Source of the DNA: Cyanobacteria bacterium SIG27
GTDB lineage: Bacteria; Cyanobacteriota; Vampirovibrionia; Gastranaerophilales; Gastranaerophilaceae
Length of the DNA: 42,236 bases
Reading direction: 5' to 3'
NCBI GenBank assembly: GCA_015152565.1
Contig: SUTT01000017.1
Coordinates: 1 to 42,236, forward strand
The translations under genes were made by a program, and so were the position numbers. The notes below the pieces were generated by a model, which was not told the DNA's origin, did not search any database, and saw only the letters and a program-made list of their open reading frames with translations. Positions 32,239 through 41,492 of this stretch are shown piece after piece (the first letter of the stretch is position 1; every line of letters starts with the position of its first letter).

Positions 32239-32240
32239 AA

Positions 32241-32340
32241 TAAAACCCCCCGTTAGGGAGGCTTTATGGAGCGGAAAGGCCTAAAATTCTAGGCGAAGAA
32301 TGAGCCATAGAATTTGGTCATATGGCGAAGCCATAAGGGG
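32241..32340 (-). repeat. tRNA-Gly-linked repeat, copy A
   Basis: 100 bp, nearly identical to copies B and C (differences in the hairpin and CCATAG versus CCGTAG), lacking the last 19 bp. Read on the minus strand it contains the tRNA-Gly acceptor end with CCA, then a GC stem and TTTTATT, like a terminator. Confidence 0.85.
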
Positions 32341-32484
32341 CTAGCCTTCTTGGATTTTAACAACTCAAAAACCAAGTATTTCGCTTTCAAAGCTTCGCTT
32401 TGTCGCTTCATTGGTTTTTTCAAACAGACGGGCTGGGTTCGCTTTTGCTCACACGGCGCCCTAGTTAAAATCCGCCGTCTGAAG
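32341..32484. repeat. 144-bp structured insertion between repeat copies
   Basis: No gene. It holds nested perfect pairings: GGATTTTAAC/GTTAAAATCC (32352-32361/32464-32473), AAAAACCAA/TTGGTTTTT (32367-32375/32411-32419), CAAAGC-TTC-GCTTTG (32388-32402) and CAGACGG/CCGTCTG (32425-32431/32475-32481). The last crosses the first. On the minus strand it has AGCGAA words like the nusG-rplK spacer. Confidence 0.7.
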
Positions 32485-32603
32485 CATAATAAAACCTCCC
32501 GCTAGGGAGGCTTTATGGAGCGGAAAGGCCTAAAATTCTAGGCGAAGAATGAGCCGTAGAATTTGGTCATATGGCGAAGCCATAAGGGGTCTACCCGTCG
32601 ACG
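32485..32603 (-). repeat. tRNA-Gly-linked 119-bp repeat, copy B
   Basis: Differs from copy C by one base (loop GCTA versus GTTA). On the minus strand the order is GCGAA-rich element, TTCCGCTCCA (tRNA-Gly acceptor end with CCA), CCTCCC hairpin, TTTTATTATG. The period to copy C and to the matching point at the tRNA-Gly terminator is 119 bp. Confidence 0.9.
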
Positions 32604-32722
32604 CATAATAAAACCTCCCGTTAGGGAGGCTTTATGGAGCGGAAAGGCCTAAAATTCTAGGCGAAGAATGAGCCGTAGAATTTGGTCATATGGCGAAGCC
32701 ATAAGGGGTCTACCCGTCGACG
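32604..32722 (-). repeat. tRNA-Gly-linked 119-bp repeat, copy C
   Basis: 118/119 identical to copy B. It directly adjoins the terminator of tRNA-Gly. Contains GGCGAA (32660), TGAG, ATTTGG and a second GGCGAA in the same order as the nusG-rplK spacer. Confidence 0.9.
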
Positions 32723-32729
32723 CATAATA

Positions 32730-32751
32730 AAAGACACCCTCAGGTGTCTTT
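32730..32751 (-). terminator. Terminator of tRNA-Gly
   Basis: 9-bp stem AAAGACACC (32730-32738) / GGTGTCTTT (32743-32751), then TTATTATG on the minus strand. It directly follows the encoded CCA. Confidence 0.75.
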
Positions 32752-32753
32752 TA

Positions 32754-32829
32754 TGGAGCGGAAGACGGGGCTCGAACCCGCAGCAGCCTGCTTGGAAGGC
32801 AGGTACTCTACCAATTGAGTTACTTCCGC
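32754..32829 (-). tRNA. tRNA-Gly (TCC anticodon) with encoded CCA
   Basis: Minus strand, 73 nt plus genomic CCA. The acceptor GCGGAAG pairs with CTTCCGC; the discriminator is T. The anticodon stem CCTGC/GCAGG encloses CTTCCAA, giving TCC. The T-arm has GGGTTCGAGCCC. It is flanked by repeats made from its own 3' end (downstream) and 5' end (upstream). Confidence 0.95.
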
Positions 32830-32937
32830 AATTATTATATTCAATTTTCACTTTTGCTATTGTAACTCAATTGGTAGAATGTGGTCAAGCCACGTTACTA
32901 CGTTTGCACTTCGCAAGGTTGAGTTACTTCCGCAATT
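32830..32937 (-). repeat. Direct and inverted tRNA-Gly 5' fragments
   Basis: Upstream of tRNA-Gly there is a 19-bp exact copy of its 5' end with flanking bases (32919-32937 matching 32815-32833, offset 104 bp). Between them lies a GCGAA-containing insert and an inverted copy of the D-arm (GTAACTCAATTGGTAG on the plus strand at 32862-32877). The copy lacks an anticodon and T-arm and cannot be a working tRNA. Confidence 0.85.
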
Positions 32938-33045
32938 TCGTTAATAATCTCAATAAGTTAATTTAACACCAAACATTCATTTTTTGCAATAGCAAAATTA
33001 TTTTTTGAGTTGTTTTATAATTTTACATGTAAAATGAGGATAATT

Positions 33046-38130: not shown

Positions 38131-38254
38131 AATTAAATAATAAAAACGATAATCCTCAGTAGCTCCCAAGTGAGCGAAAGCGAAACGATAAGAAATCGGA
38201 GCACTTGCGAAGCCATTGAGCGATAAACAAAAAATTAAATAGCAAAAACGATAA
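38131..38254 (+). repeat. Truncated and inverted tRNA-Asn 5' fragments
   Basis: A 35-bp stretch covering the tRNA-Asn upstream region and its first 13 nt occurs at 38131-38165 and again, 33/35 identical, at the real gene (38233-38267), offset 102 bp. Between them a GCGAA-rich insert (38166-38211) and an inverted D-arm copy GCCATTGAGC (38212-38221) are found. This mirrors the layout before tRNA-Gly. Confidence 0.85.
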
Positions 38255-38326
38255 TCCTCAGTAGCTCAATGGCGGAGCAACCGGCTGTTAACCGGTAGGT
38301 TGTTGGTTCGAGTCCAACCTGGGGAG
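38255..38326 (+). tRNA. tRNA-Asn (GTT anticodon)
   Basis: 72 nt. The acceptor TCCTCAG pairs with CTGGGGA (one G-U). The anticodon stem ACCGG/CCGGT encloses CTGTTAA, giving GTT. The T-loop is GGTTCGAGTCC. The discriminator is G, as for Asn. CCA is not encoded. Its 3' end is one boundary of a candidate island. Confidence 0.95.
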
Positions 38327-38687: not shown

Positions 38688-41492
38688 ATGGATAATAAGA
38701 ATATAGTTGAGTATCGAAAATTAGTAGAAATTAAAAGATTAGAATTCGAAAAATTATATAATATTTTTATTAATTCTACGAATTATATAAATAGTAAAAG
38801 AAACATATTAATTGCAGCAATTGATTTAATGATTACAACATCAAAAAAGATGTCTTTGTATTCTGCAAACTCAAATGATATAGATAATATCTTATTTGAA
38901 GAAATAAAAAGTCTTTCCTTGGATGAGCTTATTAATATTGCTAATGAATCTTACACTATTGGAGCAATTAGCATAATACGCTATGTTATAGCTCAAAAAT
39001 TTATAAAAAATGAAATTAATTCTGCTATTGAATTAAAAGACAGTATTGAACAAATTAAAGAATCTTTTATTAACAAAGAACTTAAACTTTTTTATCCATA
39101 TTTTGATGATACTCATAAGGAAATATTAGATTTTATAAAAAATTATAGCAAAGGCAATCCTTTTCAATCTTGGGGACCATTATACAGATATTTATTGCCT
39201 TTTGTTTATGATTTAAAACTTCGTGATACAATATGGCATGCAATTGAAATTATAAAAAATGAACTTTTAAAGAGATTAGATATTGAAAAAACTTGGGAAA
39301 GTAAAAACTCTCAAGGTTGGTATAATAAAGTTCGCAGTTATTTCGGATTTGAAGGGCCCAGTAATTATGGTTCTCAAAGGGCTGTAATTATGCTTCATCC
39401 GAAAAGTATTCCTGACCATAAAAATGCAGTTCAAATGGTATGTTATTTTGATAAAGATAAAGTTTGGGCTGGTTGTGATATTGGGGTTAATTTAAGAAAT
39501 AAAAATTACAACATTAAAATTGACGATTGGGAAAAAATTACAGACATAGATTTTAATAATTGCTATGGTTTTGAAAGTAATGAAATTCTACTTGAAGAAA
39601 AATTTGAAGTGATAGTTAAAACATTAAAAGAAAATTTAACGTTTGCTCAAAACACAAACGAACAATTGCTGCAAAAATTTTCCTATATTGGCACACAAGA
39701 AATAGCTGAAGGAAATGCGGAAAAAAGCAGCAATGATGATGACGCAAACTTATATGATCCTTTTATAAATAATAATAATAAAGATGAAGATACAAATCAA
39801 AAACCTTTGCCGATTAGTGCAGCACATAATATAAAAACAAAAAAAATCTATCCCAATATTAAACCCGAAGAAGACTTCTTAGAACGAATGAAAATTGGTA
39901 AATACCTTGCTGATGAAATTATAATGGATAAAAAAGTAGAAGCTTTAAATGTAGGTATTTATGCTGATTGGGGTAGTGGAAAAACACAGGTTTTTAATTT
40001 CATAAAACAAAATTTAAAGACAAAAAAATCATTGAAAGATTATTTTGATTTTAGACCAGATATAGATAAGCAATATATTTGCGAAGTAGTAGATTTTAAT
40101 GCATGGCAGTATAATGATTTAGAACATATTTGGGCTTCATTAATGATGGCATTAATGAAAAAATGTACAGAAAAACATTGTTTTTATATTAAATATATAT
40201 TTTATAAGTTATTTGTATTTATAAGAACAAAATGGCAAGAGGTATTATTTAAATGTTTTATAATTGTCTTTTTGTTTATATTCTTACAACATATAAATTT
40301 TGTATTAAACAATACTTTATTAACTAATCTTTTTAGTTTGCCTCTATATATAAAAATTATTGGAATTATTCTGATTGCGTTATTTCCAGATTTATTTAAG
40401 TTTGGTTTATTAAATATAGATAAAGAATTTTTAAAATGTTTTAAAACTCCTGATTATAATGAACAATTAGGATTCAGAAATGAAATTAAAGATTTGATAT
40501 GCTATACATTAGACTATTTAAGTAATAAAGGGAAAAAGCGAATAGTTTTATTTATAGATAATTTAGATCGGTGTTCTTTTTCAAATATAAAACAAATAAT
40601 AGATGCCATAAGTCAATTTCTTGAAATTTGTAATCAAGAGAAAAACAATTTGGTTACAATTTTCGCAATGGATAAAAGTATAATACAGAATGCTTTAAAA
40701 GAAGAAAACATTCCTGAAGACAAAATTAATGAGTATTTAGATAAAATAATAAATCTTCCTATATATTTAAAAATGCCCAAAGAAATAAATAAATTAATTA
40801 ATAGATTATTTGGGGAAGAACCAAATGATACAAAAGAATATCTAAAAGAACAGTATTCTAAAAATCATTATTGTCCGAGAACACTTTCCAATATTCGTTA
40901 TTTAGATCATATGCGATATACTGTTTTTGATCAATTATTAAAAGACTATGAATATTATGCCGATTTATTTAAATTAAAAATAGGAGATGATAAAAGTTGG
41001 GAATTTTTAACAAATAGTGAAATTGAATCTAGTATTGAAAAAGATACAGAAGAAGTCAATAGATATGTTAATGCTAGCCTAACAACTATTTCTGAATATA
41101 AAAATATTGAAGAAAAAACTTTTAATTATTTAGAACGTGAATATAGTTGGACTATTAATAGACATATTAAATATCATGACAAAATTAATAATTACTATTA
41201 TGTCTTTGATGGAATAGTTTCTTTTCCGCAGAAAGAAATATTAATTGAAATTAAATATGTAAGAAATAAGGAAATTCTGGAATCGATTTATAAAAATGTT
41301 TTACAGCAATTGTTTAAATATTCTTCTGCTATTGATATAAATAAAAATCTTGAATTAATAATGGTTTTTGTTATTGATTCTATTGATAATAGAGAAGTTG
41401 TACAAATTGGCTTAAACAAAAAATTACAAAAAGATTTGTTAAATACAAAATATTTTGGTCAAGTTTTAATTATAAGTAAAAATGATTTGTAA
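38688..41492 (+). CDS. KAP-family P-loop NTPase with PD-(D/E)xK-like C-terminus
   Basis: 934 residues. The N-terminal region (1-380) is mostly helical, with a mixed domain at about 205-330. The KAP NTPase has Walker A ADWGSGKT (Lys432), the family stretch VVDFNAWQYND (468-477) and Walker B IVLFIDNLDRC (619-629). Two membrane helices (about 520-540 and 552-572) interrupt it, as is usual for KAP. The last 120 residues contain Asp841 and Glu854-Ile-Lys856 after a possible Glu816/Glu818, the spacing of a PD-(D/E)xK nuclease. KAP proteins often occur in anti-phage and mobile contexts, so a membrane-linked defence effector is inferred. No SD; ATG 38688 is preceded by a TATAAA-like box. Confidence 0.85.
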   Translation: MDNKNIVEYRKLVEIKRLEFEKLYNIFINSTNYINSKRNILIAAIDLMITTSKKMSLYSANSNDIDNILFEEIKSLSLDELINIANESYTIGAISIIRYVIAQKFIKNEINSAIELKDSIEQIKESFINKELKLFYPYFDDTHKEILDFIKNYSKGNPFQSWGPLYRYLLPFVYDLKLRDTIWHAIEIIKNELLKRLDIEKTWESKNSQGWYNKVRSYFGFEGPSNYGSQRAVIMLHPKSIPDHKNAVQMVCYFDKDKVWAGCDIGVNLRNKNYNIKIDDWEKITDIDFNNCYGFESNEILLEEKFEVIVKTLKENLTFAQNTNEQLLQKFSYIGTQEIAEGNAEKSSNDDDANLYDPFINNNNKDEDTNQKPLPISAAHNIKTKKIYPNIKPEEDFLERMKIGKYLADEIIMDKKVEALNVGIYADWGSGKTQVFNFIKQNLKTKKSLKDYFDFRPDIDKQYICEVVDFNAWQYNDLEHIWASLMMALMKKCTEKHCFYIKYIFYKLFVFIRTKWQEVLFKCFIIVFLFIFLQHINFVLNNTLLTNLFSLPLYIKIIGIILIALFPDLFKFGLLNIDKEFLKCFKTPDYNEQLGFRNEIKDLICYTLDYLSNKGKKRIVLFIDNLDRCSFSNIKQIIDAISQFLEICNQEKNNLVTIFAMDKSIIQNALKEENIPEDKINEYLDKIINLPIYLKMPKEINKLINRLFGEEPNDTKEYLKEQYSKNHYCPRTLSNIRYLDHMRYTVFDQLLKDYEYYADLFKLKIGDDKSWEFLTNSEIESSIEKDTEEVNRYVNASLTTISEYKNIEEKTFNYLEREYSWTINRHIKYHDKINNYYYVFDGIVSFPQKEILIEIKYVRNKEILESIYKNVLQQLFKYSSAIDINKNLELIMVFVIDSIDNREVVQIGLNKKLQKDLLNTKYFGQVLIISKNDL

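Follow-up and report, generated by a model that had tools for sequence, protein, structure and literature searches.

Two questions are raised by the tRNA-Gly gene described here: why should an intact tRNA gene be preceded by a second copy of its own 5' end, with a reversed copy of its D-arm in between, and does this arrangement reflect a process that acts on the ends of tRNA genes? The window analysed is the whole of a 42,236-nucleotide contig from the 1.84-Mb genome of an uncultured Gastranaerophilales bacterium (G000), in which 36 tRNAs were found. Among the named relatives of a neighbouring gene, most are Candidatus Gastranaerophilales, as is every close one that bears an order name. Statements about the genome as a whole are based on searches and fetched stretches.

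The tRNA-Gly and tRNA-Asn loci

The tRNA-Gly gene (anticodon UCC) lies on the minus strand at 32754–32829 and is intact according to ARAGORN and to an Rfam tRNA score of 69.4 bits. As originally predicted, the 19-bp sequence TTGAGTTACTTCCGCAATT at 32815–32833 is repeated exactly, and in direct orientation, at 32919–32937, a spacing of 104; the outer copy, also on the minus strand, comprises the leader AATT and tRNA nucleotides 1–15. Between these copies, all on the minus strand and read from the outside inward, lie a core made up of the hairpins TTGCgaagtGCAA and GTGGcttgaCCAC (32879–32918, from sequence and fold), an inverted copy of the D-arm (32862–32878) and a leader segment of the GAAAATTGAATA type that adjoins the tRNA (32830–32861) and resembles the leader in other units. 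The insert contains the expected GCGAA (TTGCGAAGTGCAA), and the inverted copy is present as described, although its length is 17 nucleotides and not 16: it is the reverse complement of tRNA nucleotides 7–23, with 100% complementarity between arms at 32807–32823 and 32862–32878. Part of the core, GTGGCTTGACCAC, is also found in the Gly units of G005, G012, G013 and G015, with a near-match in that of G028.

Upstream of the 5' unit, a probable native promoter, TTGCAA-17-TTAAAT, was located by eye on the minus strand (32961–32989). This candidate is too weak for the consensus scan, and similar boxes precede the unit-free tRNA-Gly genes of congeners, e.g. G003. The scan reported instead a second candidate inside the unit (TTGACC-18-TACAAT), which was discarded as being at chance level: the region has two promoter-like sites, where 1.8 would be expected.

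Mirrored units that the original prediction had missed occur downstream of the same gene, again on the minus strand. Directly 3' of the tRNA is a terminator hairpin (32727–32754; 12-nt inverted repeat, 4-nt loop). It is accompanied by a first 119-bp unit of tandem repeat family D1 at 32619–32737, with the core motif TAGGCGAAGAATGAGCCGTA and a copy of the tRNA 3' end, TTTATGGAGCGGAA, at 32631–32644, and by a second 119-bp tandem unit at 32500–32618, 96% identical to the first, with its 3'-end copy at 32512–32525. A partial further copy of 111 bp (96%) lies at 32239–32349. The far end of the array holds a different repeat (GGCGGATTTTNACTAGGGCG ... GAAGCGACAA; 32400–32480), which is seen again downstream of tRNA-Asp(gtc) (L014).

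The second case put forward at the outset, in which the 5' end of tRNA-Asn is repeated at an offset of 102, also proved to be real. On the plus strand, a 5' fragment (TCCTCAGTAGCTC, 38153–38165, within a 23-bp repeat) is followed by a core (38166–38211), an inverted copy of D-arm nucleotides 10–19 (GCCATTGAGC, 38212–38221) and the intact tRNA-Asn (GUU; 38255–38326; ARAGORN and Rfam). The orthologous site is empty in G012. The order of fragment, core, inverted arm, leader and tRNA therefore recurs at both genes, as had been claimed, but the sequences of the two inserts differ. The tRNA-Trp in the same window has no end copies. Adjoining tRNA-Asn, 38688–41492 encodes a 934-aa protein with a KAP P-loop NTPase domain.

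Distribution and anatomy of the units

Rather than the two independent cases first counted, far more were found. Several of the 36 tRNAs of G000 have 5' units (~87–104 bp) and about ten have mirrored 3' units; of the 35 whose flanks are long enough for the comparison, 5 are preceded within 250 nt by at least 12 nt of their own 5' end, and 7 are followed by a copy of their own 3' end. Across G000, G012, G013 and G028, exact copies of at least 12 nt from the tRNA's own first 30 nt were present within 250 nt upstream of 22 of 107 tRNAs, compared with 3 of 770 swapped comparisons (Fisher p = 2e-18), the swapped control being composition matched because it uses the flanks of other tRNAs in the same genome. 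Inverted arm copies were found at 15 of these 107 tRNAs and 3'-end copies downstream of 22, each against 0 of 770. The proposed mechanism acting specifically on tRNA 5' ends is thus borne out in being recurrent and specific to tRNA ends, but not in its restriction to the 5' side, since 3' ends are hit about equally often and in mirror image.

Units built as fragment, core, inverted arm, leader and tRNA were found at more than 12 isoacceptors and are not confined to a single family of the order. The trait is patchy, because G018 and G029 show little or nothing above control for 5' copies. In a class-wide sample, end copies were also seen at a few tRNAs in other families of the class (Lys in G063, Met in G053, Phe in G041 and Thr in G047), so that behaviour of this kind may predate the order. 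Upstream of the tRNA-Thr of G047 (L294), a tandem arrangement contains D-arm copies in both orientations.

To define the anatomy of the units, 40 upstream and 29 downstream cases were read with their matches marked. From the outside inward, a unit consists of a tRNA terminus, a core, an inverted arm (not in all cases), a leader or terminator and the tRNA itself; 3' units in G000 have a 3'-end copy, sometimes an inverted T-arm, and a copy of the terminator. Units on the 5' side span about 100 bases and those on the 3' side are often longer. The 5' offset is as consistent as the Gly and Asn pair had suggested (median 102 over 34 loci, 28 of which fall between 85 and 115), with 3' offsets more scattered (median 149, range 95–254). 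Averaged over 39 5' units, agreement between the outer copy and the tRNA is 0.92–1.00 over nucleotides 1–11 and falls below 0.5 by nucleotide 18, this inner part of the profile being inflated by the choice of units for a match there. Past the tRNA end, agreement declines within a few bases to about 0.6–0.75, a drop that the choice does not affect. In most cases the inverted arm extends 6–10 nt further than the outer copy and was therefore probably templated by an intact arm. Tandem arrays of nearly identical members occur in G028, which belongs to another family: the array at tRNA-Ala reaches six or seven 91-bp units and that at tRNA-Phe five. Many contigs of G013 start or stop at a tRNA gene, as expected if arrays break short-read assembly.

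Sister species differ in which sites are occupied. Between G000 and G012, presence differs at 10 of 31 5' sites and 5 of 31 3' sites, a few of these pairs having weak flank scores and being perhaps not true orthologues. Among the alignments listed, those for Ala, Val, Asn, Ile and Arg-acg show the native upstream flank continuing into the outer copy, extra DNA of about 100 bp within the D-arm region, and a new copy of the 5' part of the tRNA at the end of this extra DNA. The inserted leader often differs from the native one (Ile, Arg-acg). From these alignments, filled sites are read as insertions of about 100 bp into the D-loop that would restore the tRNA, and precise loss between direct repeats would also be compatible.

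Shared cores and cassette A

The search for a conserved core gave a divided answer: some cores are common to different tRNAs, but most inserts differ in sequence. With tRNA-derived words excluded, 26 pairs of units from different tRNAs, not independent of one another, share at least 12 nt of core, and in 26 of 26 the core has the same orientation from fragment to inverted arm. Such sharing involves a minority of units, many cores being unique. The 3'-core motif GGCGAA-N3-6-TGAGCC occurs seven times in G000, always beside a tRNA.

Units of G012, G000 and G028 served to define the core family termed cassette A (ACTCTGCCGA-stem-GAGAGGG), which then became the query of a wider search. Matches were found in 25 of 38 relatives, compared with 0 for a reversed-pattern control, and in 142 of 386 genomes of the phylum, all of them from family f1 apart from G028. 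No match was found in families outside the order, where few genomes of those with end copies were sampled. In the tRNA-associated examples that were read, cassette A lies in sense orientation when 5' of the tRNA and in antisense orientation when 3' of it. Among fetched loci, some of them seen twice, 28 of 42 instances lie no more than 400 bp from a predicted tRNA; most of the remainder carry tRNA-end fragments and many are near contig ends. The stem takes 51 distinct forms with compensatory pair changes (position 1 is GC in 25, AT in 15, CG in 9 and TA in 2), and nearly all can fold between the fixed strands. For the closing stem, 12 of 33 instances have at least 7 bp compared with 11% after flanks are swapped, a test weakened by the 3'-side copies, most of which show no clear closing stem.

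G119, G191 and G220 carry multiple copies of cassette A that lie more than about 600 bp from any tRNA, so that siting at tRNAs is the rule near the genome of the window and not everywhere. The copies in these three genomes (L315–L324, L326–L334) are dispersed, intergenic and part of longer repeats; forms in G191 close with GAATTTGC/GCAAATTC or with GGATTTGC/GCAAATCC, a compensated pair. At L312 (G223), cassette A occurs twice and adjoins what by eye appears to be a 5S rRNA fragment, from which other structured RNA genes may also be targets. At L308 and L264, in two genomes, it shares a common non-tRNA context (GATGGCGAC ... ACCCACAGGAGC), possibly another RNA gene.

Possible origins and relation to known systems

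Filled and empty sites, mirror polarity, shared cores, arrays and stem covariation within the cassette family are all observed, and on this basis the units are, in our judgement and with modest conviction, probably small non-coding palindromic insertions that enter the loops of the outer tRNA arms and carry a replacement tRNA end. Entry would be through the D-loop from the 5' side and through the T-loop from the 3' side. Each unit would then comprise the original terminus up to the arm, a hairpin core, often an inverted copy of the gene's own arm, a leader or terminator, and a second copy of the terminus that would restore the tRNA. The two ends would be mirrored, plausibly because the acceptor-stem strands make a tRNA gene an inverted repeat, and the repeated termini could then permit both tandem growth and precise loss. 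Cores would pass between tRNAs in one orientation. The conserved core is sense upstream of tRNAs and antisense downstream, which argues for a cause at the level of DNA. The process would most likely be template switching guided by structure, or recombination at the hairpins, perhaps aided by a host recombinase. Fold-back template switching, as in quasi-palindrome mutation, would naturally give inverted copies of this kind. No evidence was seen that the units serve tRNA function.

Several points count against insertion. No mobility enzyme was found (see below), and core sharing is limited to a minority of units. Each host tRNA has its own version of the inverted arm, which a plain transposon would not carry; selection for RNA pairing could also account for copies matched to the host. 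Such selection leads to the most serious rival, which is live though we consider it unlikely, namely that the pre-tRNA leader is a cis-acting RNA folding switch. In one predicted fold the inverted arm would pair with the tRNA D-arm and the outer 5' fragment with the 3' strand of the acceptor stem, excluding the cloverleaf, and read-through from the native promoter would be needed; in the alternative the inverted arm would pair with the outer fragment and free the tRNA. When 30 5' units were folded from fragment to tRNA end, the pairing of inverted arm and tRNA had a median probability of 0.99 and the acceptor stem was lost, and for tRNA-Gly the joint fold is calculated at -68.3 kcal/mol, compared with -52.4 for the parts folded apart. 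The extension of the inverted arm beyond the outer copy and the promoter-like boxes outside the unit would also suit such a switch. However, these folds follow partly by construction, as any inverted copy pairs with its source in a thermodynamic model. Moreover, the 3' units are mirrored, lie after the terminator and have their conserved core in antisense orientation relative to the tRNA, a position in which a leader switch would be meaningless, and sister species differ in presence at a third of the 5' sites.

Less likely again is site-specific recombination, in which units would circulate as circles with the tRNA end as attachment core, integrated and excised by a tyrosine recombinase in the manner of tRNA-targeting phages, or as folded single strands in that of integron cassettes. 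Terminal duplications of 12–21 bp that restore the gene, tandem arrays, insertion points in the D- and T-arms, a variable stem kept around fixed strands and the presence of tyrosine recombinases in every genome are all as this would have them. The units are, however, mostly about 90–150 bp and gene-free, each tRNA has a homology core of its own, no integrase was found to accompany the units, and integron integrase (TIGR02249) scored above cut-off in 0 of 38 genomes, which yielded only sub-threshold tyrosine recombinases. Ordinary tandem duplication of a tRNA, with one copy decayed to a pseudogene half, seems improbable: His units preserve a larger share of the tRNA 5' half, though degraded, some Leu units retain the native 3' strand of the D-stem, and the leader or terminator is often duplicated too, but decay leaves neither inverted arms nor compensated stems nor fixed-orientation cores common to different tRNAs, nor outer copies that still match the tRNA exactly next to a leader that has diverged. 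Artefactual assembly of metagenome bins can be dismissed almost entirely, since, although some contigs, above all in G013, end at tRNA genes, the same architecture and orthologous units recur in independently assembled genomes and cassette A is present in 142 genomes of the phylum sample and in no family outside the order.

Of the three enzymes searched for, namely Y1 transposase, reverse transcriptase and integron integrase, none tracks with the distribution of the units. A RAYT/IS200-type origin was set aside because Y1 transposase (PF01797), present in G005 and a few others, is absent from G000, G012, G013, G018 and G028. Reverse transcription by a resident RVT_1 enzyme was likewise rejected, RVT_1 being found in G000, G005 and G012 and not in G028, G013 or G015, an absence that rules out no more than a resident enzyme of this family common to the unit-bearing genomes. 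In Rfam searches of the window and unit loci for a known RNA or ribozyme, only tRNA reached the gathering score. Viral carriage found no support, as 22 IMG/VR motif matches lack the closing stem and look like chance, and among the matches listed for phage records only the tRNA-Gly part is covered.

Several known systems share single features with the insertions favoured here. The E. coli tyrT distal repeats (rtT RNA) are tandem repeats of ~178 bp with the 3' end of tRNA-Tyr, and the 119-bp Gly repeats and other arrays are likewise tandem, beside a tRNA gene and furnished with copies of its terminal bases, those of the 3' end in the Gly repeats. To our knowledge the tyrT system is confined to one locus and to the 3' side, with no inverted arm, mirrored 5' form or genome-wide occurrence; no Rfam rtT match was found in the window or in a permissive scan of eight unit loci. 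REP/BIME elements, which are dispersed between genes in many copies, resemble the units in being short, in forming hairpins and in combining a conserved base with a variable stem. Unlike them, the units are sited at tRNA ends with copied tRNA termini, and there is no Y1 transposase in G000, G012, G013 or G028 to take the part of RAYT; as to dispersal, cassette A is scattered in G119, G191 and G220, whereas the 3'-core motif lies only beside tRNAs in G000. Rickettsia palindromic elements are small and tolerated inside genes, RNA genes included, but they sit within a gene that is retained, whereas the units duplicate the gene end and restore the gene. Divergent repetitive hairpin elements in sponge mitochondria lie in many cases 5' of tRNA genes and are labile between related species (PMC2800124); these are organellar, and the relevant passages of that account report neither tRNA-end copies nor inverted arms. 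As with tRNA-targeting phages and genomic islands, insertion leaves the tRNA intact and a partial copy at the far side, but the units are ~100 bp, contain no genes or integrase, affect both ends and have a core that differs per tRNA.

A search of the open-access literature returned no account of such units in Gastranaerophilales, nor of mirrored tRNA-end units in general. We know of no precedent for the combination of features, single ones being precedented in tyrT repeats, REP/BIME and mitochondrial hairpin elements, and the units are therefore placed among small palindromic repeats as a new form, and there is a real chance that they are a class of their own. More tentatively, they may represent an undescribed class of mobile element that would target the folded arm of structured RNA genes, writing an inverted host arm and a replacement end; such a class would spread through essential tRNA genes from both sides without killing them.

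Mobile DNA classically lands in tRNA genes, and the elements concerned normally bring an integrase with them. In the present case, gene-free units of ~100 bp occupy many tRNA ends across a large group of uncultured gut bacteria, follow a mirror rule and carry arms matched to the host tRNA. If the units move, some mechanism would have to copy the host's own arm; if they act in RNA, they would constitute a widespread tRNA folding switch. On either reading these loci vary greatly from one close species to the next and so lend themselves to strain comparison.
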